From the NCBI RefSeq assembly GCF_039555335.1, contig NC_092628.1, positions 79,176,713 through 79,240,712 of the forward strand: a DNA stretch of 64,000 nucleotides, given 5' to 3'. Position numbers and translations under genes: made by a program. Positions 4,151 through 40,700 of this stretch are shown here, piece by piece; position 1 is the first letter of the stretch, and each line of letters opens with the position of its first letter. The notes beneath the pieces were generated by a model. It saw nothing but the letters and a program-made list of their open reading frames with translations. It ran no database searches and was not told the origin of the DNA. This stretch comes from Amphiura filiformis. Lineage: Eukaryota; Echinodermata; Ophiuroidea; Amphilepidida; Amphiuridae.

Positions 4151-4282
4151 CAACATTAGTCAGTCCTGAAGCAAAAAAATAAAGAATAGCCTGCAATATT
4201 TTCGTAAATGTTCCAGTATTAAAAACCAAAACAAAAGTTCATTCCAGATAAGGGTATTTATTTGATACAGTTAACATAATTT

Positions 4283-6520
4283 AACTACGTCCACGCCTAA
4301 ACGCAAAACCTGTTATTTTTGAACTACGTCTGCGCCGACTGCGCCGACATAAAAACCAAGACCTACGGTCCAAACACTGCCGGGAACACTGCATGTAGCA
4401 GCAAAACACTCAAACGCTTCTGGTATCAAACACAAAACAACATACCATCCCAATTCAACTTCAACGGGGACAAATCCCCCTCCAACACTGCGTCCATGCC
4501 CCATTTATAAAATCACCCATTTTAATTACGACCACACACAAAGCCCAAACATGCTAAATTTCGACTACGTCTGCGCCGACATTAAACCAGGACCTATACT
4601 TTGTCCAATTTACATGTACCAACAACAAATTCAAACACTATCAAACACAAAACAACATCTTGTAGGCCTACTCCTTCAACGCCATTGTGGGACAAATCCC
4701 CCCGCAACACTGCGTCCACGCTCCATTTTTAAAATCACCACTTTTAACTACGTCCACGCCCAAACGCAAAATCTGCCATTTTCAACTACGGCTGCGCCGA
4801 CTGCGCCGACTTAAAACCAAGACCTATGTCCAACATACTGTTCATGTACTGCCAGTCTGCCACCACATTCACACACAATTTAACATATTATACTAATTCA
4901 ACATCATGGGCACAAATCCCCCAAACACTATGTCCCATTCATAAAATCACCAATTTTATCCACGTCCAAGCCCAAAGCCCAAACCTGTTAATTTTCAGCT
5001 ACACACTAAAAACTACGGGGTTATATTTTCCGTGGTCATTTTGAATTGACCACGTTTGGGGTTGTTTTGACCCTTCAAGGGGGTTGTACTGTTTTAATTT
5101 GACCACATTCACGAGGTCATTTTAGCCACGACGAACGTGGTCAAAAACTTAGTGGTCATTTTGCCGATACCATCGCGCATTGATATCAGTTTCAATCTTC
5201 CGCTTTGAAAATCTCAATTCATAAATGAGTTTAAACATGAGCTGCAATTAATGTTTGTTGATTAATAAATAAAACTAATTTTTTGACTGAAGTTACCCAA
5301 TTTGTCAACTTTATAATGACTTGCATTTCGGAACTATTTGCACACACGGTGTGCATCGGCTCACGTGGTCACATCAGCGCCATATTTGTTCTGATTGTGC
5401 AGCTCAGCGGATTGTCGTGTGCTTGTCTGCATGATGGAATATGAAAAGTTAGTTGAAAAGTGAGACTGCAAGGATGCATAGACCCTTGTCTATGCACGCA
5501 GATTCATTCAATTTCATGCTGTCGTGGCTGGTGTCTTGGCTGCAGTTGTTATAAGCTTATATCATGTAAGCTTATAATATGTGAACTGTCATAGGCGATG
5601 ACTGACTGTGTGTGAGTGTGATACACAGATGCATTTTGCAGTTTGCTGTTTATGTAATGCTTTCTCTGTGCAGAAACACACTTATGTCCTGGTGGGACCA
5701 GCATGACCATAGGCCTACTAAAAAAATCCAAACAACCCCTAAATGTGGTTATTGAGTAACCCTATAAAACAACCCTTTTAAATGGGTCATTTCATTTGAC
5801 CCCGAAATGAGGTCATTAAGTAACCCAATAAGGCAACCCTTTTGAAGGGGTCATTTCATTTGACCCCAAAATGTGGTAATATTTTGACCCCAATGGGGTT
5901 ACTATTTGACCCAAATACGTAGTCATTGCAATGACCCCGACCAATGGGGTCAAAATGACCCCGTTAGTGGTATGGTGTTTAGTTGATAACTATGCTGGGG
6001 TCAAAAATGACCCCGTTTGGGTCATTTTTGACCCCGGTAGTTTTAAGTGTGTACGTCTGCGCCGACTACGCCGACATAAAAACTAGACATATAATTTGTC
6101 CTAGTAGGCCTATACATGTACCAACAACTAATTCAAATACAATCACACAAAAAAATACCACATCTTGAACTCCTTCAACGGTATAACGGGGACAAATCCC
6201 CCACAATACTACGTCCACGCCCCATTTTTAAAAACCTGTCAATTTTCAACTACGTCTGCGCCGACTGCGCCTTGTTAAAACCGACACCTAGGGCCTATAG
6301 GCCTACTCCCGAGTAGTACCAGCAAACATACTTCCTTTGTTTCATCTGCAACTTAAATAATGCATCTACGCTGCATTGATCAACCCGCCAATTTAAACTG
6401 CGTCCACGTCAAACGCCAACTCTGTCGGTTTTTTGACTACGTCTGCGCCAACTGCGCCCACAAAAAAAACCAAGACCTATACTTAGTCTCCAGAATAACA
6501 CACTCACAACATTACCATAC
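4283..6520. repeat. Satellite array, ~190-240 bp units, interrupted by a transposon
   Basis: Units are marked by ACTACGTCTGCGCCGACTGC near 4323, 4564, 4785, 6249 and 6436, with one more unit split at 5001/6052. Each also carries AACTACGTCCACGCC, AAGACCTA, and a GGGGACAAATCCCCC hairpin in most units. The array is cut by the element at 5002-6051 and resumes in phase after it. Confidence 0.85.
5002..6051. mobile_element. ~1.05-kb TIR element inserted in the satellite
   Basis: The left end CACACTAAAAACTACGGGGT and the complement of the right end (CACACTTAAAACTACCGGGG) form ~20-bp terminal inverted repeats. Both sides are flanked by TA, and removing the element restores the satellite unit. Subterminal regions carry many GGGTCA/TGACCC motifs in both orientations. 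No transposase frame is seen, so it is non-autonomous. A TA target site suggests Tc1/mariner-like mobilisation, but that is inference. Confidence 0.8.
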
Positions 6521-7086: not shown

Positions 7087-10000
7087 ATGAGCACTGAATC
7101 CGATTATTCGGATTCAGAGCAATCTGACCATGGGTCTGGAGGTAAGGCAGACGTAGGAGGATTGGGTCTAGCGATTGTAGATATTCCAACAGGGAACGAT
7201 TCATCATCGCCGCCACTTTCGCCTGCCAAGTCAAGACAACGAAGTGATTCGGAGTGAGTGTTTTTGTTTTTACAATTAACTTTAATATCATGAATATGTG
7301 AAATATTGGCTGTAAAATACCATATGTTCGTGTTATAACTAGGTACAATGTACATTGCTGCTGTGACTAAGGATACTGAGTTTGTTGATTGAAGGAGATT
7401 GAGATTATATTTTAATTTTGAAAAAGTACCATATTATTTTTTCCAGATTTCCTTTTACGCCAGTCGTCCAGCGCATATTATTTTCTATAAGGTCCTATGC
7501 ACACGCTTGACATTGCGCACATATACGCGATGGTTAACGCATAAAGGGAATCCTGAATAATTGTATAATCTAAAACTACAGCATTGTTTTGCAAAAGTGC
7601 CATACTAACGCTTACTTTCCTATTTGGAGAGGTGAGGATGTCAATTTTGACATCCTTGTCTGTTTACAAACAGGAAGGTAGACAAAAGACCTGTCACAAC
7701 CGTTCCGGTTGTCTAAACACTCAAGTATCAGAAGGATGGTCCACAATAGAGTGATTCACACAATTTTTATGAATAGGAATTAATTTAAAAAGCTGTCATA
7801 CATTGTACATAGAACCACATAATATAGCTAGTTTGCCATCAAGATTTTGAAGATCATGTCAGTAAATAAATATTTTGTTCTGGTTCTGGGACTGATTATT
7901 TGGACTATACTACAGATAGGTATCCCAGGCAAACCTTAGTTAACACATTTGCTAGTCAGCGAAATTCGCCGAGACCGGGGTCCAAACACAATCAATGCAT
8001 ATTTACATAGAAATTTGAATTTTTTTTTTCGAGAACAGGTCGGTGAAGGAAACCTACATAAATATGTTTTCTATACTTCACTTGACCCAAATTTATGATT
8101 TTTTATGGTGATGAGCCACTCGCTCATGGAATTTTAGAGGGATTTTTATAGCAGTTCCATTAAAAAAAGCTGCTATTGCCATGAGACTAAGATCTAGAAA
8201 CACCCCTAAATGCTGTTTTGGGGAATTTTGCTAGCAGAATCTTTTTTGATTAAAGTCAATCTTTGACAAGATGTAACTTTGTTACGGAAAGTGCTATGAC
8301 AAAAATGTTTTCAGTTTTGGCTTTACTCAAGGGCTTTAATTTGATACCGTATGTAAAATGATGCAGTTTGATGGCAAATTGAATTTACCTAGCATACCTA
8401 CTACAGAGATGTAGGGTTTTTAATATTTTTAAACTCTTATTTAATGGATCTACTAAATAGGGTTTTTAATAGGTAGGCCTACAGGTAGTTAGTGAAGGCA
8501 CAATGTATCTGAAAATTTTATCAATAATCAAAATAAATGTGGCCTATAAAAATGACATCATTTGAGGATGATATTTACCTAATTTTATAGTGAAAACAAA
8601 TACATACAAAAAAAAAGAGCTTAAAAATCTACAACTAGCAAAAAAATTCATTCACCAACTTGCAAGAAATAGCTGCAGATCAGTGGCTGAGAATTGGAAC
8701 TGTTTTGTTGATGCTGGACAATGTATTTTCTGAAGATTTTTGGCAGGAAGTTGAGTGAATAATTGATTATTTGAAGCAAGATGTTACCAAGGCTCTTATA
8801 GCATGATGGCAGGAATCCATATCTATGAATTCATGGCAAATTCTCCACATGTTTTTAGCATGAAAATTAATTGAAAAATGTGATGACATGTGAATGACTC
8901 CAAAAATGAATGCAAGGCTACGAATGTTATCTGAACTGCAGGAAATTTTTTTGTAGATCCAATGGTTGATTCAACAGGTGGCATATTTTTGTTGATTGAT
9001 TGATTTCCCCTCCCCCCCCCAAAAAAAAAATTAGGTCTTTTTGGGAAAATGTATCTACAATATGAAAGGTCAAAATTTTCAATTGATCATCGACTTTTCC
9101 TGCCAGCTACACTTTAAGTACATAGCATTAGATTTATAAAGTTTACTTCGAGGACTGTTATATATCAAAAATTTTAAAAATATCAAATGGTAATAATTTG
9201 TCATAAAATTTGTATTATATCGCGAGTTTCAAAAAAGTAAAATTATTTGATATCAGAAGGACATTCTTTGTATTTTGAATGCATATCAAATGTCTGATGT
9301 GCTCTCATGTCCCACAAAAATACTGTCGAAACGCTCATACCAGAGCCTTTAAATGTGATCAATAATAATATATTCTGTCAACATGTGTTTTCACAGATCA
9401 GACCATTCCTTCTCAGATGAATATTCTGGCTCGGAACTTTCAACTCAAAGAAGTGACAGAACTCCAAGTCCTACAAGACAGAAGAAGTCAAAGGTGAAGC
9501 TAAAAGATGGTACTACCTTGGATCTTACTCCTCCTGAGGATCTCCTTCCCAATGCTGAGAAGAGAGCCAGAAGGCATATAAAGCATGAAGAGGTAGGGAA
9601 TTAAAAAAGACAAACTGTGAAATACAGTCTTGTTATACTGGAAGGTAATTCAGTTTGTCATGCTGAGGCCCAGAAATAAAATTAAGGTTGAGTGTGACCT
9701 TTAATGTAAAGAGAATTAAAGAGGAATTTTTGTTTTGAGACAGCTTACAATATACATGTAGGCAGGGCCAGCATTGGTTTATTCCAGTTGAAATCCATAC
9801 ACCCCTATGGAAGACATGTTGTGCTTTATCTCCCACACAGGGGTGTATATTTCAAATGGACTCATCTCATACAGTTTAGGTAATCCCATTTGAAATTCAC
9901 ACTCCCTGTTTGGGAGATTAAGGTCATGTATTCCATAGGGGTGTTTGGGTTTCAACTGATATAGCCCATTTTGTGAAGTGGATGCTGGCACATACTATTT

Positions 10001-13000
10001 ATTACATTATATTATTGCATACTGGTTTTGTAATAAATATTCAAATATTCTTTGTGTCATTAAAACTTGTTTGTTTTTGTGTGTTATTGATTTGGAGTAA
10101 CTATGCAAGACACTGCTATCCATTGCTTTGTAATGATATCAAATGATGCCCCAAACAATTTTTTCAATCCTACATCCAAGCAAGAAAGGTAACTAACATG
10201 TTACTAATATATCATGATAACTTCTAAAATAGATGTAAAAATTACTAGTTTCTCCTAATGCTTCCCACCACTTACATTTTCTTACAAGTAGGTATGGAAG
10301 AAAGTATTAGGACAATGCAACCACCCTGTAGGTTTTACCAAGGATTCTCGAGTACTAATATACTATAGGATAAGCCACTCGTTTGCGCAAATGAAGTCAG
10401 TCATTCAGCCTATGCGCCTTCATGCATGTGATGGCATAGCTGTACCCAAATGCGTGTAGGAGTGTATAACCTGTGGAAGAGATGATGCAATGTTTACGTC
10501 ATCGTTTCCAAAAAAAAAAATTAAATGGCGAAAAAGCGGCGAACATTTGGTCGAATCTTTCTATTACTATCATATCGTGAAAAACCAAATAGCTGAGGAG
10601 TTAGCTCAATATGCTAGGAAAATATTCTGTTCGATGACCCTATGACGAGACTGGCTAAATAAGCTGTATTTTTTCTGGAAAGGGTCCGAAAAATTGGCAG
10701 TCGATGGGCGCCATCTTGGATAAATTTGGTGTACTGAAAATGCCCAGCAACTGTCAATCAAATACGAACTTGTCAATTGAATATAGGATAAGTCTGTTCC
10801 ACCGTGGCAGAATCGCTAACGTTGTTGTGCGAAACGTCTTGTCGTAAATTTTAGGCTAAAGTGCCTGAGCGTTACCAGGGCGTTACTAGGTGTACTGAAA
10901 AAGCCTAGCAACCGTCACTCAAACTGCCGATGTGTCAATTAAGTTGCCGTAAAGTGACTTCAATTTTTATACAGGGTTTGAATACGAGTGTCACAGCCCT
11001 GGTTTTACTTCAGAACACACCCCAGCATATATCAACATACAATTTGCTTGCAGAGAATAACAGCCTTTGTTTTTTCTGATTAGCTTATTCAATCATCAGA
11101 CAATCATAATAACAAACTGGTAATCTGATTGACCAATTATGCATCAAAGCTGCACTCTGTTCTCGTGAAGGGTCTCAAAAGGACTACAAAGCTCTGTCTA
11201 TGTCGCTCATTAACAAAGCATGTGCATCAATCAGAGCAAAAGAGGGCTATTCTTATATAGAAGCTAGTTAGAAATAATATCAAAATTATGATTTCTATTT
11301 TCTTTTTCACCTAGGTGTCTGATGCTATTTACGAATTAACAAAATGTACAGCATTAGCCAGACTGGTGTATGGGGATGACAATTGGAAGTTAGCAGAAAG
11401 TCACACAAACCTGGCATATGCTTACTTAACACTTAAAAGTAAGAAAAATTATTCCATACTTTTTGGTGGTTACCACTATTATAAACCAAAGCAAATCAAG
11501 GTAGTGGCAAATCTTAACTAATTTCCATTTCAAGTTAAAATTTTCAAATTGGTACTTAAATAAAAGGGTTGAGCATATAAGAGATTACAAATTCAACATA
11601 ACAAATGGTCATTACCATACAATTTCATAAAAATACCACCATGCCTTTATGCTTGTAGAAGTGGCTCATATTTTAGCAAGTTGTGGTGATAAGCGGGTCA
11701 TTTTGAAATAGCATAAATGTGTGATTTTTAATGGTTTGTGGCATCCTCTGATGCTTTCAACTTTTTAATTTTCTGTTTGAAGAAAAAAAGAGAATATAAG
11801 TGTTATTTAAAACTCTTTATTTCTTGTTTGCCTTTCTTCGAGCCTCTTTATCAATCTGTTTTCTTTAATATTAAAGAGTTTCATTTGTAGGATTGTTTCA
11901 TACGATTGGTGATTTTTTGGTAGACAAATTCAGAAAAATTGTACTCACTTTCTGAGCTTTCGATGACCGGTTATGCCATCTTGATCACAGATGTCCAGGC
12001 TCACTGCACTTCCCACCATGGGACTTGGTAGTTTCATTCCCATAGGTTCTTGATTGTTTTGTTTAAGATTTGATTTGTGAACTGATTTTTCACTTTCCTT
12101 TCCATAATTTTCTGTTGTCACTTTTTTGTTTAAAAATGTCATTGTCTCTGCTTTGCATTTGTAGTTATAAAAAAGTGCACTAAAGTAACAGTGATATTTG
12201 GTTTATAAATTGTACAGATTTGCCAGTGCAAGCTCAGTACCATGCAGACATAGCTAAGAACATCATGTTGTCTGGTCTACATACCTCGGATTCAAGCAGC
12301 TCTAAGGCAGAATTACTACTCATGCTGGTCAAGATGTACTATGTGTTAGGAAGGGCCTTCACCATTCTTAAGAAATATCCTTATGTTTGAAGTTGTTGTG
12401 ACTTTTAATTATCTGAGAGACATTGTATGTGAAGAGGGGTTGTCATGTTGGTCACAAATGGTAAAAAAGTGACATAATAATTGTAAATGTGTTAATGAAG
12501 GTTTGGTATAGCATTGTTTCAGACAATTTTTGAATATGAACATTCTATAATCTAAGAGTATGACGGATCATCAATGATCATCTGAAGGTGTTTTATAAAT
12601 GGGTAAAATAAACAATCATTGGTTGAAACAAAATGTGCACTATAAGTATAAGTGATAGTAATTATGTATAAATCTTCAAACTTGATGAACCTATTTCCAA
12701 TAAGATGCTGTGTTCGATACCATATCATTCCTGGGATGAGTTTTACTGTGACTGTATTTCCTTAACTGATATATTTACATACCCTGAATCTGAGCAGAAT
12801 CTAATGAAAGCAGAGAAGGTATCAGATGAAAGAAAGAAACTTGGACGATCAGAAGGCACAGAGAAAATTGACTTGGATATCAAGATAGCAATAGCAATGG
12901 CAAAGTAAGTAGTAAAATAGGTTTTGGCATCACAGAACTATTGTAATAATTTCATACACTCTTAGATAGGAACGCGTATTACTTGTTGCTCGATAAATTA

Positions 13001-16000
13001 GACAAAATAATGCACTTGCGCTGATGTTGATGCGTCTAATGCACTCCCCTTCGGGGCTCGTGCATTAGACACATCAACATCAGTGCGCATGCATTATTTT
13101 GTCTAATTTCTCTCCCAACAAGTAATACTTGTTCATTAACCTATAAATATCATATGGAGTAAAATGGTAGTCACATCTCTAAGGTTTAGAGTTGCAAATT
13201 ATGGCAGGTCAAAGGAGCAATATTCAGTGTAAAATGCATAGTAAGCAGGTTAGGTTATTGTGTAGGTCTAATCTTGGCACAGGATGTTACTTTTTTAGTG
13301 TTTTTAGATTTACACTTCAAAATATCCTAAACTGGAAGTGATGAACGAATGATTGGTTGATTGATTGATTGATTGATATGTGTCATAAAATTCTAGTAAA
13401 AAGCACTAATTCCTGGGCACTAATTACCCATTTTATCAAGACAAAAATACAGGACATGAAAGAGGAGATTTTAAGGTATTTGCTTTTGGGAAAAAGAAGA
13501 CCTATTGATCTTTTGCAACCACCAATCGTGTATATTTTTCCTCCACTGTAAATTTTATATTTGCTGGCATCCGTCTCATTCACCCTTGTATTGCTCATAA
13601 TTATAGTGGTAATATATAGATGATGGTAGAAACCAAACTCCAAGATGCTTTTACTAATTGATAGTGTATCTCGTCTCAAGTTGAGAGCTGCACCATGTTG
13701 GATTTCGCAGTTAGCAGATTCAAATCGTACATGCTAACCCAATCCTGCAAGGCATACAACATGTGCGTAGAAGAACGATTTGTCCGTACAGTGGCAACGC
13801 AATCCCATAAATGCACAGATTTTAATCTGCCACTGTGAAATCCAACATGCCGTTACTCTCAAATTTAGACAAGACACCAGGTGCATACTTCAGGCAGTTT
13901 TTCATCTTCTTCAGCAATGAAATATTATGATATAAAAACAAAACTGATAAAATGAATAATTTTTTATTCTGTCATGAGACCATTGATGTTTTTTGTTGTT
14001 CTATATTTGTTGACAGGTTATTTGCCAATCAGAACAAACAGGCTGCCAGTCAGGGGTACTATGAACAAGCTATGAAGAAGGTTGAAAAAAATTATGGCAA
14101 TGATAGCATGGAACTCATCGCTATATACCAAGACATGGGGAAAATATCCTTTAGTTTTCAAAAGATTTATGTAAATTTTACTTGAACTATTAGACTGCTA
14201 TAGAGGTTATCCGTGTTCTATAAGTTGCATATCCTATCAGCGACTGCTATACCTTGTTTAGGACTTTCAAAAGAAGTACCTGCATGTGCAACCATGACTG
14301 CTTCAAAATAGCCCGCCAAAGTCTGAAAGTCATGCAGGTAACTCCGAGGTTGTGCATTGAATTGGTTTGAATGAGGAATACTATTGGAATCAGCGGCCTT
14401 TGTTAGAAGTCACGCATGAGTAAAGTGGATACCCTCTATTATATGTGTTTGTTTGTTTGTTTGTTTGCTTGTTTACTATATTCCTTAACTTGTAATTTAC
14501 TTGGAACAGAGTAAAGGTAAACATGCAGACCATGATAAAGCTACAGAGAGCTACTTGCAGGCATATTCTATTTCACTGTCAAAGTAAGTAGTTGATAAGT
14601 TGATATACAAAGACCTTTCACAGTGTCCTATTTGGCGCAGTTTATGGCTTAAATATGAAGTCTGATTGGCTAATTGAATCATGTCATCATCACATCAGCA
14701 CCTCATTCGCCAATCAATCACGTGATGCAGGCGTTCCTTTAACGTGATTGATTGGCAGCAGTGCAAAGGTCTTTGCAAAAGCCTGTAGCTGTGAAAACCA
14801 ATATTACCCGAGAAACATGCAGACTGGTTCTGGGATAGCATTAGTTTTTGGAGGCCATAGTAAAGGGGGCATATCTAATAGGGCTAGGAAGACCATACTT
14901 CCTAGGAGTGAATTGATATAAATAAAGCTAGCCTGTAGTATTCGTGAAGTGTTTTTTTTCATTGCAAGCAGAGAAAAAAAAACCTACTTCAAGGCAATCA
15001 TGTAAATATGTAAGACTCTAGTAGGCCTTTCTCATATAGAGTTATTTAAGCCAGGATAAGTCCTGTACTGTTTATGTATCCTTCAGGTAAAAAGTTGAAA
15101 TGAAAATCCATGTTCCCTGAATGATAACTTGACAAGTTACATGAAATATTTTTCTGAGTTGTATCATGGGATGTGGTGCAACGCCAAAGTATTGAATTAT
15201 TTTTGTATTACATGAATCAAGGATAACAAAGTATAAGAATATTACAAAGTTCTTGGTCTCCTATTGAGAATAGTTAATGGAACATTTCAATATATTTTTA
15301 ATATAAATTCATGTATAAGATGGTGATGCTTGAATCTTGTCATGTCGTTGTTTTCAGCTATGATGGACAGAGTGAAGAAGTAGCCGAAGCAGCACATAAG
15401 TTGGCATTGGCCTATTCAGAGGGTGTTACTGTTGAAGCAGAAAGTAAGTGTGTAACTGTGTATGTGGGGGTGCACTTGTGCCAGCATTCTTTTGGGGTAC
15501 TGTGTAACTTGCAGCAATAGCTTGTGGGGTACAACTTCTTTGGGGGGTATAAATCATGGATCCCATAAAGAAAAATAGCTTATAGGACCCATAAGGCCTG
15601 AGACATGCAAAAATGCAATTTTTAGAGGTACCTCATAAGGGGGGTAAGGTGGGTCTGTGTGAAAAAATGTTCCCCACAAACTATTGGTGGTATGTTTTTG
15701 GTACCCTACAAGAATGGTGTGATAAGAAATATACCCCATAAAGAACCACTGGCCTATTTTATACACACATAATGCTGGATCCCACAAGAATCCTGGTGTA
15801 AGTATGTGTGAATGTACACACATACGCTGGGGTGTGTATTCTTTGTGTGCTATAGTTGAAGCAAGCATATGTGTGTGGGGGAGGGGGGTGTATATTCATG
15901 CTCTGAAATGAATCGGTCACAGAATTTTGCTATGTTGTAAATGCAAGTGTAGTACATTGTTAAATGGGAAAGATATTTTGGGAGAAGAAACGTTTTTTAA

Positions 16001-18194
16001 AACTTTTCTTCAAAACTTAAAAGCCTTTTGCTGCTATCATATAAATTGTATTCATAGTTTTTATTCTTGTACAATTTTCATCTCACCTCATACTTGTGTA
16101 TCTTAAACATAAAACCATGTTACCAAATAACTTCAATGTTGGTGTGTTTTTCTTAATATTAAATTTTAGCTGCTGCAGAGAGATATTTAGATGAGAGTCT
16201 TGGTATAAGACAAGTTTTATATGGGCCACATCATCCTAAGACAATATCAAGTCAGGAATCACTGTGTAAACTCATGATTAGAACAGAGAGGCAGGAGGTA
16301 AGGAACACTTTGACATTTGGTAGACCCAAGGAGGTTAGATCCAAAGAGTACCCTATGTGTAATGCTATGGTAAATCCACCATTATGGCTTGTCACTCATG
16401 GAGAAAAAGTAGTGTATCTCTTGCGTTTATTGGCTAAAGCCAAAAATGGAATGATAATTGGTGTATAAGCTAGAGCATTGCAAAGGTATGTGCATGCAGT
16501 GCTATAGCGTGTGTTTTTAGTACCACTTGTTAAACATAGAACGCAAACAACCGCACACGTTATATCGAAGTTTTCCGGGCGCATGGTGAAATAATCCAGA
16601 GATACACTATTAGTGATATTATTAGTGACATGCAAATATGACAGAGTCGGTAGTTTGGTTAAACTTCATGGGGTAGATAGGCCTCATATCATCATAATTT
16701 CTCCATAATTACAAATACCAGATTTAATATATAACCTGTGGAGCACCCTAAGCATCTCACACTCACTGTTTCGTCTTTGATAATCAGTGCTGCATGGTGA
16801 TATCACAGGTCTCATTGGGTAATTCTACTTTATTGTAATGAGTTGAGTGATTGATGAGTGTGACATCCTTGGCTTTTCTTCACACTTAGTATTTAACAAG
16901 ACCATCAGTTCCTCTAGTGCTTAATTTTGGTATTTTTCTTCCCAACTTGTCTGAAATTAGTACTTACAAAATTGGCAAAACTTTTAACTTCATACAAAAA
17001 TCAAAGTTGGATCAAAGCACAATTAAGATTTTGTCCTAGCTCCATTCTATCCCTGCAAATGATAGACCAGTGTATATTTTGACTTTGCAGGATGCATTGT
17101 CCTTACTGAAGACAATCATTGCTGCCAAGAATGCTACATATGGAGATCTGAGTGAAGAAGTTGGTGAATCATACAAGCTCTATGGCTCTATATTACTAGC
17201 ACAAGGGGAGATGGAGAAGGCACTGAGATACTTCAAAAAGGTGAGTGCTTATAAACTATTTGGGTTTCAAAATTTTACTTAAAAGACAAAGGAGTAAGAT
17301 GTGATTGATTTGCTTTGATGATTGATAGATTGATTGACTGACTGATTAGTTGATTGATTACTTGATTAAATATTGATCAATTGATATTGATTAGTTTTGA
17401 CTATGCAGTAAATCTTCTCTCACAATTCTTCCCTATAGTGCCATACCATCCAGAGTAACCTATTTGGAGCAGGACATAGGAAGTCAAAGGCAACACAACA
17501 AACTATTGACATGTTATTACAGTAAGTTATAATTTATTTTGTTGGATCAGAGATGCAATATTCATTCCCTATGAAAGCCAAAATAGTGACATTGGGCTAT
17601 TCCCGTTGAAATCCATATACCTCCTATGATAGACATGACCTTAATCGTCCACACAGGGAGTGTGAATTTCAAATGGGGTTACCAGAATGGGTGATTCTAT
17701 TGGAAATTGTGGGAGATTAAGGTCATGACTTCCATAGAGGGTGTATGGATTTCAACTGGAACAGTCCATTGTTTAACAACCTGTGCTAGGAACTTTGTGA
17801 TTTGGGCTTTTATTTTGTGGGGTTTAGTATCCAGGCCACAAAAGGTTATTCTATGATTAAATATACACATGTCTCATGTTCAATCAAAATTGGGTAATTT
17901 TTACATGTGCTGAAAACAATATCAGAACTTTTTCCTGGCACTTGAGCATCAATCCTGAACAGAGAAGTGTTCCTCTTAGAATCCGGTTTGTGCCACAAAT
18001 TGAAAGCTTTATTAAGTTTTACATCATGTACATTAGACTGATCAGCTTATTCTTACTCTCCCATGTTTTAATCTGGTATCTTTGTTACCATTTTCATTCT
18101 GTTCTATAGATCACCCATTTTAGCAGCTAAGGAAGGGCAGACTAAAGCAGGGCAGCTGAAGAGAAGACCACGCTTCTCAGCCAATGTGAAATAA
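7087..18194 (+). CDS. TTC23: TTC23-like tetratricopeptide repeat protein, 12 coding exons, complete
   Basis: Spliced CDS: 7087-7253, 9397-9592, 11315-11438, 12218-12374, 12779-12904, 14017-14143, 14501-14583, 15358-15443, 16170-16297, 17091-17240, 17439-17521, 18110-18194. It totals 1512 bp, in frame throughout, predicting 503 aa. Residues 1-~100 are Ser/Asp-rich and probably disordered. From about residue 120 the protein is helical TPR-type sequence, with blocks such as KCTALARLVYGD, SHTNLAYAYLTL, LPVQAQYHADIAKN, KATESYLQAYSISLS and GPHHPKTISSQESLC. These match what I know of TTC23/TTC23L. In vertebrates TTC23 sits in the EvC zone of the primary cilium and promotes Hedgehog signalling (family knowledge). 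Human TTC23 is about 447 aa, so the N-terminus here is longer. The start is the first ATG of an open exon (MSTESDYSDSEQ) with a good GTGAGT donor. Introns 4 and 6 are U12-type AT-AC; the others are GT-AG. The paralogue TTC23L cannot be excluded. Confidence 0.88.
7433..7562. mobile_element. Foldback MITE, family P, copy 1 (TTC23 intron 1)
   Basis: Inverted ends (CAGATTTCCTTTTACGC versus GCATAAAGGGAATCCTG) surround a core with ACACGCTTGACATTGCGCAC. A clearer copy lies at 30091-30231. Confidence 0.7.
7936..8232 (+). repeat. Dispersed repeat, family Q, copy 1 (TTC23 intron 1)
   Basis: About 290 bp matched in reverse orientation at 29566-29905. Shared blocks include ACACATTTGCTAGTCAGC, ACTTCACTTGACCCAAAT and GAGACTAAGATCTAGAAACA. 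Confidence 0.7.
8990..9365. repeat. Probable dispersed repeat in TTC23 intron 1
   Basis: Part (9060-9220) resembles 36370-36600: both have AAAGGTCAAAATTTTCAATTG-type sequence, a CAGCTA..ACACTT block and an AAATATCAA..GCCATAAAAT-like segment. Divergence is high, so this is a weak call. Confidence 0.45.
9778..9967. mobile_element. Foldback MITE, family S, copy 1 (TTC23 intron 2)
   Basis: Ends ATTCCAGTTGAAATCCATAC and its near complement near 9935-9965. Internal GGGAGATTAAGGTCATG and CAAATGG blocks are shared with 17594-17768, in intron 11 of the same gene. Confidence 0.75.
10727..10944. repeat. Two-copy direct repeat, ~161 bp apart (TTC23 intron 2)
   Basis: GGTGTACTGAAAATGCCCAG followed by a TGTCAATTGAAT-type end recurs as GGTGTACTGAAAAAGCCTAG with a similar end. 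Confidence 0.55.
12375..12778 (+). other. TTC23: U12-type AT-AC intron (TTC23 intron 4)
   Basis: The 5' end reads ATATCCTTAT, matching the minor-spliceosome donor consensus. Near the 3' end lies an exact TTCCTTAAC branch-point motif at 12759-12767, followed 11 bases later by the terminal AC. Splicing here joins AA to A (phase 2), giving Lys-Lys-Tyr-Pro-Glu and keeping the TPR frame open. Reading through the donor meets a stop within a few codons, and no GT donor at this place fits the frame. Confidence 0.9.
12977..13128. mobile_element. Near-perfect 150-bp hairpin element (TTC23 intron 5)
   Basis: Arms of about 65-70 bp, including AAATTAGACAAAATAATGCA and its complement, close on a CCCCTTCGGGG tip. 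The termini are TATTACTTGTT and AACAAGTAATA. This is a MITE-like foldback, present once here. Confidence 0.75.
13653..13875. mobile_element. Foldback element, family U, copy 1 (TTC23 intron 5)
   Basis: Inverted blocks: GTTGAGAG, CATGTTGGATTTCGCAG on the left and CACTGTGAAATCCAACATG, ACTCTCAA on the right. A related copy lies at 22742-22920. Confidence 0.7.
14144..14500 (+). other. TTC23: U12-type AT-AC intron (TTC23 intron 6)
   Basis: The donor is ATATCCTTTA, a near-perfect U12 AT-AC 5' splice site. An exact TTCCTTAAC branch motif at 14481-14489 is followed by TTGTAATTTAC and the acceptor AC. The join is phase 0, between GGG AAA and TTG GAA CAG, and gives a continuous TPR segment (DMGK-LEQSKG). 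A (GTTT)n microsatellite at about 14447-14475 lies just upstream of the branch site. Confidence 0.92.
14620..14778. mobile_element. Foldback element, family V, copy 1 (TTC23 intron 7)
   Basis: The ends CAAAGACCTTTCACAGTG and GTGCAAAGGTCTTTGC are inverted. Internal TCTGATTGGCTAATTGAATC and ACATCATCACAT-type blocks are shared with 40586-40795. Confidence 0.7.
15470..15900. repeat. Degenerate G/T-rich repeat region (TTC23 intron 8)
   Basis: Loose repeats of GATCCCATAAAGAA, GGGGTATA and GTGTGTGG patterns. An open frame on the minus strand (15554-15868) is a by-product of these repeats. Confidence 0.4.
17295..17390. repeat. Degenerate GATT microsatellite (TTC23 intron 10)
   Basis: Multiple GATTGATT/GATTGACT units. 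A purer (GATT)n run lies at about 13350-13378 in intron 5. Confidence 0.75.
17594..17768. mobile_element. Foldback MITE, family S, copy 2 (TTC23 intron 11)
   Basis: TTGAAATCCATATACCTCC at one end and GGGTGTATGGATTTCAAC at the other, inverted. The interior matches 9778-9967. Confidence 0.75.
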
Positions 18195-35907: not shown

Positions 35908-36828
35908 GTGAGTGCATTCGTGATGAGGTTTTCTTGTTTCAATGATCCGATAGTAGGATACGAGACGTAGGCTAAAAAGGTCTTACACATCATCTAGAAA
36001 CGCTTCATGAGCTAAATATATTTTAAGAGCATTTCAAGATTCACAGCATCATCCCCTCACTTTTCTCAAAAAAAATTGATATTTTTAAACCTCTGGCTAC
36101 ATTGTTTATGTGCAAAAAATTTCTTGCAGATGAATTTGAAAATATCTTGGAATTTGAATTACGTTCAGAGAACGAAATTACAACACATTGTCTATGGAGT
36201 AGTGTAATGCACATATTAATCAACCCTCAAACGCAAAATCGGAATCAACTGCAATTTTGGGAATTAAGCTTTTTTTGTGGATATCTGCTGAAAAATGTCA
36301 GAAAAAGAAGATGCTAGGATCACAAAATACTCACAAAATGTACATAGCTGGAAATGAAAAGCTGACTATCAATTGAAAATTTTGACCTTTCATATTAAAG
36401 ATAGAGATTTTTTTCCTCAAAGACCAACATTTTTTGGGTGTTTTGGGGAAAAAATACAAAATGCCAGAATTTTCATATGATGGACGGCTTTTCATCCCAG
36501 CTATATACACTTCAAGACGTTCAAGTGCATATCATTGCTGTTAAATTTCAAAAATATCAATTTTTAATCATTTGCCATAAAATGTGTGCTATATCCAGGG
36601 GTCGAATCCAGGGGTCGAACTTACATTCACAACTCTGATTTTTCCTAAAATTTGGCTGATTTTCACAAAATTATACATGCACAGGCAAAATTCTACATGC
36701 ACAGAGTAACATGCATCTGTGCATGTATGCATGTGGTATTTCGAGCACTGGCTATAGCGCAAATTTCAAAAAATTAAAATTCAAAATGCAATTTTGTGCT
36801 CTCAGTTTTATTACCCATAAGCTTTATA

Positions 36829-37175
36829 GAGGTACTACACCTGCCCAATTTTGTGCCTATTTTTGCATTTTTCTCAAAAATTATAAGCGCATTGGTGACA
36901 GTAAGATATGTATATTATAGAGGCAAGGAGTACAACTATTGCACTGTAAATTTTATTTCTGCACAGACAACAGTTGTGGAGTTACAGTCAAAAATGAGGG
37001 AAAACAATATTTGATCAATAAATCAATAACTACTTGTCTTGAGTTGCTGAATTTTCAGTGCAGTAGTTGTAGTCCTTGCCCCTATAATATACATCTTACT
37101 TCTCACCAATGCACTATTATTTTTGAGAAAAATGTAAAAATAGGCACAAAATTGGCCAGGGGTGTAGTACCCCCT
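36829..37175. mobile_element. Foldback element, family F1, copy 2
   Basis: The same ~150-bp arms as 1846-2189, with the asymmetric centre in reverse orientation. Confidence 0.8.
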
Positions 37176-37765
37176 TAAATACATTCTAGAACATTTCCGT
37201 TCAAAATAACTAGATGCTACATGTATCTTCAAAAATAATTTACCGGTATCTAATTTTCTTCCAACTAGAGGGACGGTAACGAACTTAAAAAAATGTGTGA
37301 TGGGTATCACAAACATTTTATGCAAATGAGCCAGCCATGCGTCCACCCGTCTTTAAGACGGGTTAATCTAATTTTAGACGGGTGGATTTAATGGATTTTA
37401 CAGATGTTATAGGTTTAAAACAGATGATTTTAAGGTTATATGAACTTGAGACTAATTCAGAGTGACATGTAAAGGCCAAATCAGGACATATTTGACCCCA
37501 GTGACCCTTCCATGGGACAAGTTGTTTTATATTTGAGGGTCAAATTTTGGTGTCTGCTTGGACGGGTGGTTTCTGATTCCTGGCTAAGACTCTGAAACAG
37601 CGCCACTCAGTAAAAACCATTTTTTAAGTAACACAATTTCCTCACTTTCTATACTAATTTTCCAGATAGAGTCAACCAAGGGAATTTTGTTCATTACAAA
37701 ATTCACATCACACTTCTACAGGTTTCACTCTTAAACAAGAGTGCACCTCACTACAGAGCCCAAGT

Positions 37766-40700
37766 ATGGGAGCCAACAGTAGCAGTAGTATAGCGGAGTT
37801 GAGTAGCAATGAGTACCTGCAAAAATTAGTGGGTAAAAACCCCATACCTGAAGAGGACCCATTCTGGAATCAGATGCTATCATTCTCATTCAGTATTTCT
37901 AAGAACAGCTCAGATGCAAGACTGCTGGAGGAAGCCATCACATCCTTATGCAAGACATTTGGTGAGTTTCATTGTATTTTAGTGGTTTAATCCAACCAAG
38001 TAGGAAGCTTCCTTAAAAATGGTTTCTAAATTAAGTATTTTGAGGGAAAGTTCTTTGATATCCGATTACTTGACTTCAGACTTATAACCCATTCCCACTT
38101 AATTCAACAGTTCAAATTAAAGCTTGTATGCTTCTCCACTCTATGACTAACTCCTAAGGGCTCATATTGAAATACCCTACCACGTTTTCACACAGAAAGA
38201 AGGCAGGATTCCCCTCGCTAAGCGCGCGCCTCAGGAAAGCTCGGTCATAAAACGGATGGATTATTTTTCCATCAGTGATACACCCTGCCCAGGATTTTAA
38301 CAAAAGGCGGCTAGCACAGGAAAGCTGCAGGATGGCGCACACCTTCCTGTGTAAGGGAATTTCAATATGAGCCCTTTTGAGCAACATTTGAGCCACCTAC
38401 TTTTAATAGCCATGCCCACACTCATTTCAAACATTTTCTGAGCAACAACTCCTTCCCTAACATTATTGCTTAATTGGATTGGTTCCTGAAGGGTCGTGAA
38501 AGAATCCATTTACATCAGGACAAGCAAAAGTGATTTGAACAAAGACTAGGGCCGCCACAAACTTTCTGGAGGTGACAACCCTTTACTGTGTCAGAGCATG
38601 TCATATGACTTACGTCACGGTTCAATGGTCTCTGACCAGTAACAAGCATCTCTCACCAGTCCATCTACCAAGTGAGCAAAGAATAGTGTTACATTCCGAA
38701 AGCTCTCAGGTGAGCTAATTTCCACTTTGAGTACTTAGGCCTACATGTAATAGTTTAATATTCTTTATTGCTAAATGTTTGTATTATTATCTCTTTATCC
38801 TTACAGCATCCAATAATCTTCAGTCTGGTAACTTGTGCACATTGATACGCATATTCCTAGTCAGAGTCGGAGAACTCAAGAAATCAGCTCAATCAGAAGA
38901 GTAAGTAGCTTAAAAAGAAACTAGAATTATAATGTGTCAAGTGACCTGGCTTATGAAATCACTGTTTAATGTACAGGATAAACATTGCAAGCTGTTGGTT
39001 TGTATTGTGTTCTGCAATCGCTACCATTTTGATATAGAAGTTGTGAAGAATTGTAACATTGTGGATTGATATGGAATTGTTAGACAGATTGAAGATATGT
39101 TAACAAAGATGTGAAAACTTTGTTTTTCTTCATTATCTTAAAATGCATTGAAACATTTCAGGAATCATTTCACATTAACTTGGCATTGGTAAATTATAGT
39201 TTGTGTTTGTGAGTGAATCACAATATTCTGGCATAGGAAACTACTAATGACCCATTTATACCTGACATGCAACTCTTTCCGCATTTCATTCTCTCTACTG
39301 TATGCGTAGAGGAATACAGTTTGCTTAAATAATACATTTTTTGTTTATTATATATTTTCTCATACCTACCTACAGTCATGTGCACACATGGCAGACCTAC
39401 AATGCCCTGTTCATCATTCGATGTGCTATCAAGTACTTCCTGGAGTATCTCTCGGAGGGTCGCATCATCCAACATCTCTCTGTTACACAGCAACCACAGC
39501 AGTTATCTTTAGATGAAGACAGTATGGAGGGTGGTATCAGTGGAGCTGCAGGAGGAGAGCCATTACTCCAACAGTTCTTGCATGGTCTTGTGCAATTGCT
39601 GGTAGAAGTACCTGTGTTGTAAGTATTTCTGTCATGGGCTAAGGCCTAAAAAAGTCTAGGGTCTGGCCTATTTTTAGGGTCGGACGGGATACATCAATCA
39701 AACAATTTCAGGGAGGCCACCGAGGCCATTGCCTGCTCTTTTAAAGTTTTGGCCTTGGTGCCCCCAGATCTTTGTCAACTTCAAGGCATTCTTCATCCAC
39801 TTGTTGATCTTGGTGCCTTCTTTGTCTTTGTGCCTCAAAAAATTAAAATCCAAGGCCTGTCATATGGTAATTCAAAAGTATCCAGAATCAGAATAAAGTA
39901 TGTCTATGATATTGGTGTTAATGGTTTCTTCTGTTTATATGTGACGTAGCAATATACATTGTATTGTAACACTTTTGGATGTTTCATCAATATCAAACAA
40001 AATGACATTTAGAGAGCCTGTGTGGCTGATGAGATTGCATTATGAGTTTCCTTATTTTAGACTAAATGGTTGAAGCTAAAATTGTTTATATCATTTGTGA
40101 GAAGTGGTTTCCCCCCTCTTCAATGTTTTCTTCAATTTTGTTTCTTTCATTTGTTGTCATTAGTCACCAAGCTTGGGTGGAACAATTCCTTTACAATAAT
40201 TCCCAGCAGGAACAAATGTGACCTGCTACCATGAAATGAGCGTCAAGTCGCAAGTTGGTAGTTTCGAGACCTCCTGGCTGCTGCGTTGTGTTCTTGGTTT
40301 CGCATGCACCTGTTCGAGCGAATAGTATATCTGTAGTCCTTTGTGAATGGGGGCATAATGGGCCAATCACGAAGGACATACTAATGGCTTGTACAGGAGC
40401 ACAGCAAACAAAGAACATCAACTCAGCAGCCAGGATGTCTCAAAACTACCAGCTTGCAACTTTGAGCTCATTCTGTGGTAGCAGGTCTCCAATAAAATGT
40501 TTATATGTTCAAAATAACAAAATCAGCATGGCCCATGTTGTTAACATGATCTTTGGTTGAGTTTACTTTTGAATACTACAGTATTTTGTAAAGACCCTTC
40601 GCACTGCCCAATTTGGCGCTGTTTACAGTTGGGTTCTGATTGGCTAATTGAATGATGACATCATCACATAGGCACCTTGTTCGCTGTACAAGCTATGAAG

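Follow-up and report, generated by a model that had tools for sequence, protein, structure and literature searches.

Two predicted U12-type AT-AC introns, one ordinary intron apart, in a TTC23-like gene of Amphiura filiformis

The locus studied here raises the question of whether a single gene may carry two AT-AC introns of the minor class with one ordinary intron between them and, if so, whether the pair arose by duplication or consists of introns that are independently old. The DNA analyzed, referred to as the window, is a stretch of 64,000 nt from contig NC_092628.1 of Amphiura filiformis. When introns 4 and 6 were removed as AT-AC introns, reading by eye and by script gave a single open frame of 503 aa over 12 exons; the termini are GT-AG in the other 9 of the 11 introns (1, 2, 3, 5 and 7-11). 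The encoded protein contains TPR repeats (PF13424, TPR_12, E 1.7e-24, 4 stretches). In a local alignment with human TTC23 it was identical in 141 of 413 aligned columns with a score of 595 (77 for the best of 200 shuffles); the human protein used was a working version, called reference human TTC23 below, whose sole confirmed parts are the two primer peptides of PMC12332006. A sequence search of the PDB with the window protein returned 19 sequences at E <= 0.1, mostly kinesin light chains, and TTC23 did not occur by name among these 19. The TPR_12 match and the alignment agree with a preliminary description of this DNA, in which the gene had been named TTC23, and the gene is termed TTC23-like here. 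We consider it highly probable that the gene at 7087-18194 is the TTC23 orthologue, that the minor spliceosome removes its introns 4 and 6 as true AT-AC introns and that the other nine are of the major class. The ttc23 gene encodes a ciliary transition-zone protein and TTC23 participates in Hh signalling (PMC12432116, excerpt); a literature search joining TTC23 with EVC and IQCE found nothing. The gene and the elements surrounding the pair are the following.

7087-18194, + strand: coding region of the TTC23-like gene, 503 aa in 12 exons (continuous frame, TPR_12 match, alignment to reference human TTC23)
12218-12374, + strand: exon 4, ending at the first U12 donor (gene model)
12375-12778, + strand: intron 4, AT-AC, U12-type, 404 nt, phase 2 (gene model, motif counts, simulation; no other window intron falls between the sites to which the human TTC23 primers of PMC12332006 correspond)
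12375-12382, + strand: U12-type 5' splice site ATATCCTT of intron 4, C and not G at +5 (sequence reading, motif count)
12758-12766, + strand: branch motif TTCCTTAAC of intron 4 (motif count, simulation)
12779-12904, + strand: exon 5, 126 nt, with a phase 2 intron on each side (gene model)
12905-14016, + strand: intron 5, GT-AG, phase 2, the ordinary intron separating the two minor ones (gene model)
14017-14143, + strand: exon 6, ending at the second U12 donor (gene model)
14144-14500, + strand: intron 6, AT-AC, U12-type, 357 nt, phase 0 (gene model, motif counts, simulation)
14144-14151, + strand: U12-type 5' splice site ATATCCTT of intron 6, C and not G at +5 (sequence reading, motif count)
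14481-14489, + strand: branch motif TTCCTTAAC of intron 6 (motif count, simulation)
14501-14583, + strand: exon 7, starting past the AC acceptor with LEQ (gene model)

Exon 4 ends in TAAGAA, intron 4 begins with ATATCCTTATG and ends with TTTCCTTAACTGATATATTTAC, and exon 5 starts with ATACCC; exon 6 ends in GGGAAA, intron 6 begins with ATATCCTTTAG and ends with ATTCCTTAACTTGTAATTTAC, and exon 7 starts with TTGGAA. The U12 branch consensus is TTCCTTRAC, located near the 3' end of the intron. In introns 4 and 6, TTCCTTAAC is followed by 12 and 11 nt, respectively, ending in AC, and the branch point, which we take to be the A preceding the final C of the motif, lies 13 nt (intron 4) and 12 nt (intron 6) from the last intron base. 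A distance of 11-13 nt is optimal for the branch (PMC6717393, excerpt). Every AT-AC intron of the U2 type in the sodium-channel genes is described with a G at +5 (PMC2831892, excerpt), whereas the donors of introns 4 and 6 have C at this position. Combined, the ATATCCTT donor, the branch motif, the AT and AC termini and a preserved frame were found in both introns, and their U12-type anatomy is confirmed at the level of sequence. The preliminary description had placed two AT-AC minor introns on either side of a single ordinary one; intron 5, with exons 5 and 6, does lie between them, and the coordinates given there, 12375 and 14144-14500, are exact in the gene model. It had also called intron 6 a U12 AT-AC intron with an exact branch motif, and this is borne out by the ATATCCTT donor, the TTCCTTAAC motif and a branch A at 12 nt.

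The bare counts of the two motifs in the window were not enriched over shuffles. The donor motif ATATCCTT occurs 4 times for 3.47 expected (at least 4 in 49 of 100 shuffles) and the branch motif TTCCTTAAC occurs twice in the 64-kb window, both strands together, for 0.69 expected (at least 2 in 12 of 100 shuffles). However, both copies of TTCCTTAAC present on the two strands of the window sit at the ends of introns 4 and 6, and two of the four copies of ATATCCTT are located precisely at exon ends set by the reading frame. In a simulation of 200 single-strand 64-kb first-order Markov sequences, a set made of the donor, the looser motif TTCCTT[AG]AC within 3 kb and a suitably spaced AC was present in 8 sequences (mean of 0.04 per strand), the simulated sets being free of any exon-end or reading-frame requirement. 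The evidence for U12 introns comes from the arrangement of the motifs at exon ends, and it is on this arrangement, not on counts, that chance occurrence was rejected.

Other acceptors that would keep the frame with the same donors were listed around both 3' ends. For intron 4, they are the AC at 12766, located inside the branch motif, and the AG at 12832 (within 12740-12859); for intron 6, they are the AG at 14509, the AC at 14530, the AG at 14548 and the AC at 14554 (within 14460-14559). Use of the in-frame AG at 14509, 9 nt past the intron 6 AC acceptor, might yield an isoform without LEQ. The LEQ at the start of exon 7 aligns with VEQ of reference human TTC23.

Introns 4 and 6 would be removed by the minor spliceosome (U11/U12, U4atac/U6atac) and the other nine introns by the major one. 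In this configuration, each of exons 4, 5, 6 and 7 would be bordered by a minor intron on one side and a major intron on the other, and recognizing them would require both spliceosomes side by side. In the 503-codon frame, retention of intron 4 introduces a stop at codon 220 and retention of intron 6 a stop at codon 313; when minor splicing is low, retention of either intron would lead to an early stop. Skipping of exon 5 alone keeps the frame and gives 461 aa; it would require a minor donor to be joined to a major acceptor. Joining the donor of intron 4 to the acceptor of intron 6, which are both minor, results in the loss of exons 5 and 6 and in a stop at codon 251. Given the early stops upon retention of either intron, it is fair to infer that making full-length TTC23 should require two rounds of minor splicing; this double dependence had been put forward in the preliminary description and is supported by the stops at codons 220 and 313. 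The splicing of introns 4 and 6 in this way in vivo and the age assigned to them are inferences, the former with indirect support from the minor intron of human TTC23. In the window, no Rfam family was found at the gathering score, and hence no gene for a spliceosomal snRNA that could be linked with these introns; no tRNA was found in the window in a scan with the bacterial code.

Several repeats were observed in and around the gene. In intron 5, positions 12970-13134 form a long imperfect inverted repeat (81% over 167 columns), and the DNA of 12960-13145 folds at -61.8 kcal/mol compared to a shuffle mean of -15.8; it looks like a MITE-type insertion within the major intron that lies between the two minor ones. 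Two self-complementary repeat copies, 72-76% alike in both orientations, are present in intron 2 (9772-9970) and intron 11 (17589-17772) and represent a small mobile-element-like family in the introns of the gene. Outside, copies of a ~350-nt element are found in inverted orientation at 1840-2187 and 36823-37180; they are 90% identical, self-complementary at 75% and 78%, and form a MITE-like family, perhaps a recent one. Upstream of the gene, at 4280-6480, several direct copies of a phrase like CTACGTCTGCGCCGACTGCGCCGAC were seen by eye and in self-matches. Downstream of the TTC23-like gene and on the + strand, exon-sized open stretches at 37670-37987 and 39329-39619 match Dymeclin (PF09742, E 2.4e-14 and 2.3e-08), and a DYM gene is predicted there.

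A minor intron is known in human TTC23: it is retained in A549 cells upon RNPC3 knock-down, and the primers used are listed (PMC12332006, excerpt). These primers translate to ARQILA and SKELLQC, which are residues 114-119 and 167-173 of the reference human protein and align with residues 175-180 and 230-236 of the window protein. The lone window intron between the two peptides is intron 4; it interrupts codon 215, which corresponds to residue 152 of the reference human protein. The human minor intron, as far as the excerpt of PMC12332006 describes it, and window intron 4 are thus probably the same old intron; with intron 4 lying between the primer sites, one member of the pair, if not both, is probably old. 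The place of intron 6 aligns with reference human residue 236, between AG and VEQ. A search of the literature on TTC23 minor introns, U12 or intron retention found nothing, among the matches listed, on what human TTC23 has at this place. Hypoxia has also been described to alter a cassette exon of TTC23, with no minor intron named in the excerpt (PMC5879922).

The pair may be explained in several ways. Most likely the two are old minor introns that were inherited independently of each other from an ancestor, intron 4 being probably shared with human. A different proposal is that one or both introns are removed by the major spliceosome at nearby GT-AG sites, the U12 motifs serving as decoys or being relics. 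Pairs of GT and AG that keep the frame, defined by the absence of a stop before codon 481, do exist (for intron 4, 16 of the 143 pairs examined; for intron 6, 7 of 44), but their scores are weak: the best summed pair scores were -3.8 (intron 4) and 3.7 (intron 6), and the donors of the top pairs scored -3.9 and 2.0, respectively, compared to 5.0-13.1 for the nine real donors. For intron 6, the best GT-AG alternative, 14171/14509, combines a donor at 2.0 with an acceptor at 1.7 (0.0-9.0 for real acceptors), real donors and acceptors being scored leave-one-out. Moreover, the top GT-AG pairs would add or drop residues at junctions where the AT-AC product aligns with reference human TTC23 without gaps, the aligned runs being KKYPESEQNLMKAE/QKFKEAAENLTKAE and GKLEQSKG/AGVEQALG. 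Major-spliceosome use of these sites, although possible in frame, was rejected as highly unlikely. If both introns are minor, only intron 4 might be ancestral and intron 6 specific to the lineage, either through gain or by occupying a place without a human minor intron; this alternative departs from independent old introns solely in the age of intron 6. The human literature found reports a TTC23 minor intron only within the amplicon to which the place of intron 4 belongs, and PMC12332006 was the only work on TTC23 with minor introns or U12 among the matches listed. Against this, minor introns are reported to be gained only rarely and to be mostly old (PMC10639083, excerpt), and PMC12332006 tested model introns, a whole-gene mapping being absent from the excerpt. 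A lineage-specific intron 6 is rather unlikely.

According to the preliminary description, the pair could go back to a TPR-coding exon that was duplicated in tandem along with its minor intron. The gene does code for TPRs, and over their final 28 nt introns 4 and 6 agree in ~24 of 28 columns. Compared as whole sequences, the two introns score 27 (11 of 300 shuffles as high) and so do the exon-intron-exon blocks (20 of 300), the best match being the intron end in both cases. However, the shared end consists of the branch and the 3' signal expected in any two such introns, and 295 of 300 shuffles scored as high once the ends were taken off. The phases differ, 2 for intron 4 and 0 for intron 6, and from the same anchor residue of the TPR register intron 4 is located at 26 nt and intron 6 at 6 nt, i.e. 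20 nt apart; different phases and different offsets argue that no module was copied. The similarity between exons 4+5 and 6+7 that this proposal had offered as a test was not seen: as protein the score was 25 for a shuffle mean of 25.9, with 544 of 1000 shuffles as high. As DNA, 110 of 300 shuffles were as high for exon 4 with exon 6 and 30 of 300 for exon 5 with exon 7. Among the 36 pairs of exons 3-11 compared singly, 118 of 300 shuffles were as high for 4 with 6 and 211 of 300 for 5 with 7, whereas some exon pairs, e.g. 3/10 (0 of 300), 9/11 (1 of 300) and 3/8 (3 of 300), did resemble each other, as TPR repeats should. Phase, TPR register and the dissimilarity of exon pairs and intron bodies combined led us to reject duplication of a TPR module, which we regard as extremely improbable. 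The TPR register nearly coincides for introns 3 and 4 (25 and 26 nt) and for introns 5 and 6 (5 and 6 nt), each pair being made of one major and one minor intron. Two old repeat duplications, followed by conversion of one intron per pair from minor to major, would make the gene a fossil of class conversion. This reading, to which we give very little credence, holds only if the coincidence is not due to chance; two or more such pairs were obtained in 7.3% of random placements (7 introns, 126-nt repeat), which is not significant, with anchors hand-chosen on the exon-pair alignment and a coincidence spotted after the fact.

Two minor introns in one gene are not exceptional and come as little surprise. 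In human and mouse, 50 genes have two minor introns and 3 have three (PMC6717393, excerpt), U12 introns cluster in the same genes in 21 of the 21 genomes surveyed (PMC7367187, excerpt), and most mammalian genes for voltage-gated Na+ and Ca2+ channel alpha-subunits contain two (PMC2831892, excerpt). Ideas on the origin or working of minor introns are left unchanged by the present pair. It provides a clean non-human TTC23 case in which the minor spliceosome should be required, which agrees with published connections of minor splicing to cilia (PMC13216214, excerpt), and it points to an old age for one or more of the TTC23 minor introns. The human TTC23 minor intron of PMC12332006 is found in what is by alignment the same gene, with primers that enclose the position of intron 4; its subtype and exact position are not given in the excerpt. 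As in the Na+ and Ca2+ channel alpha-subunit genes and the 50 human genes, two minor introns would be found here among many major ones. The TTC23-like gene belongs to a different gene family, and its two minor introns are both of the AT-AC kind, with one major intron between them.
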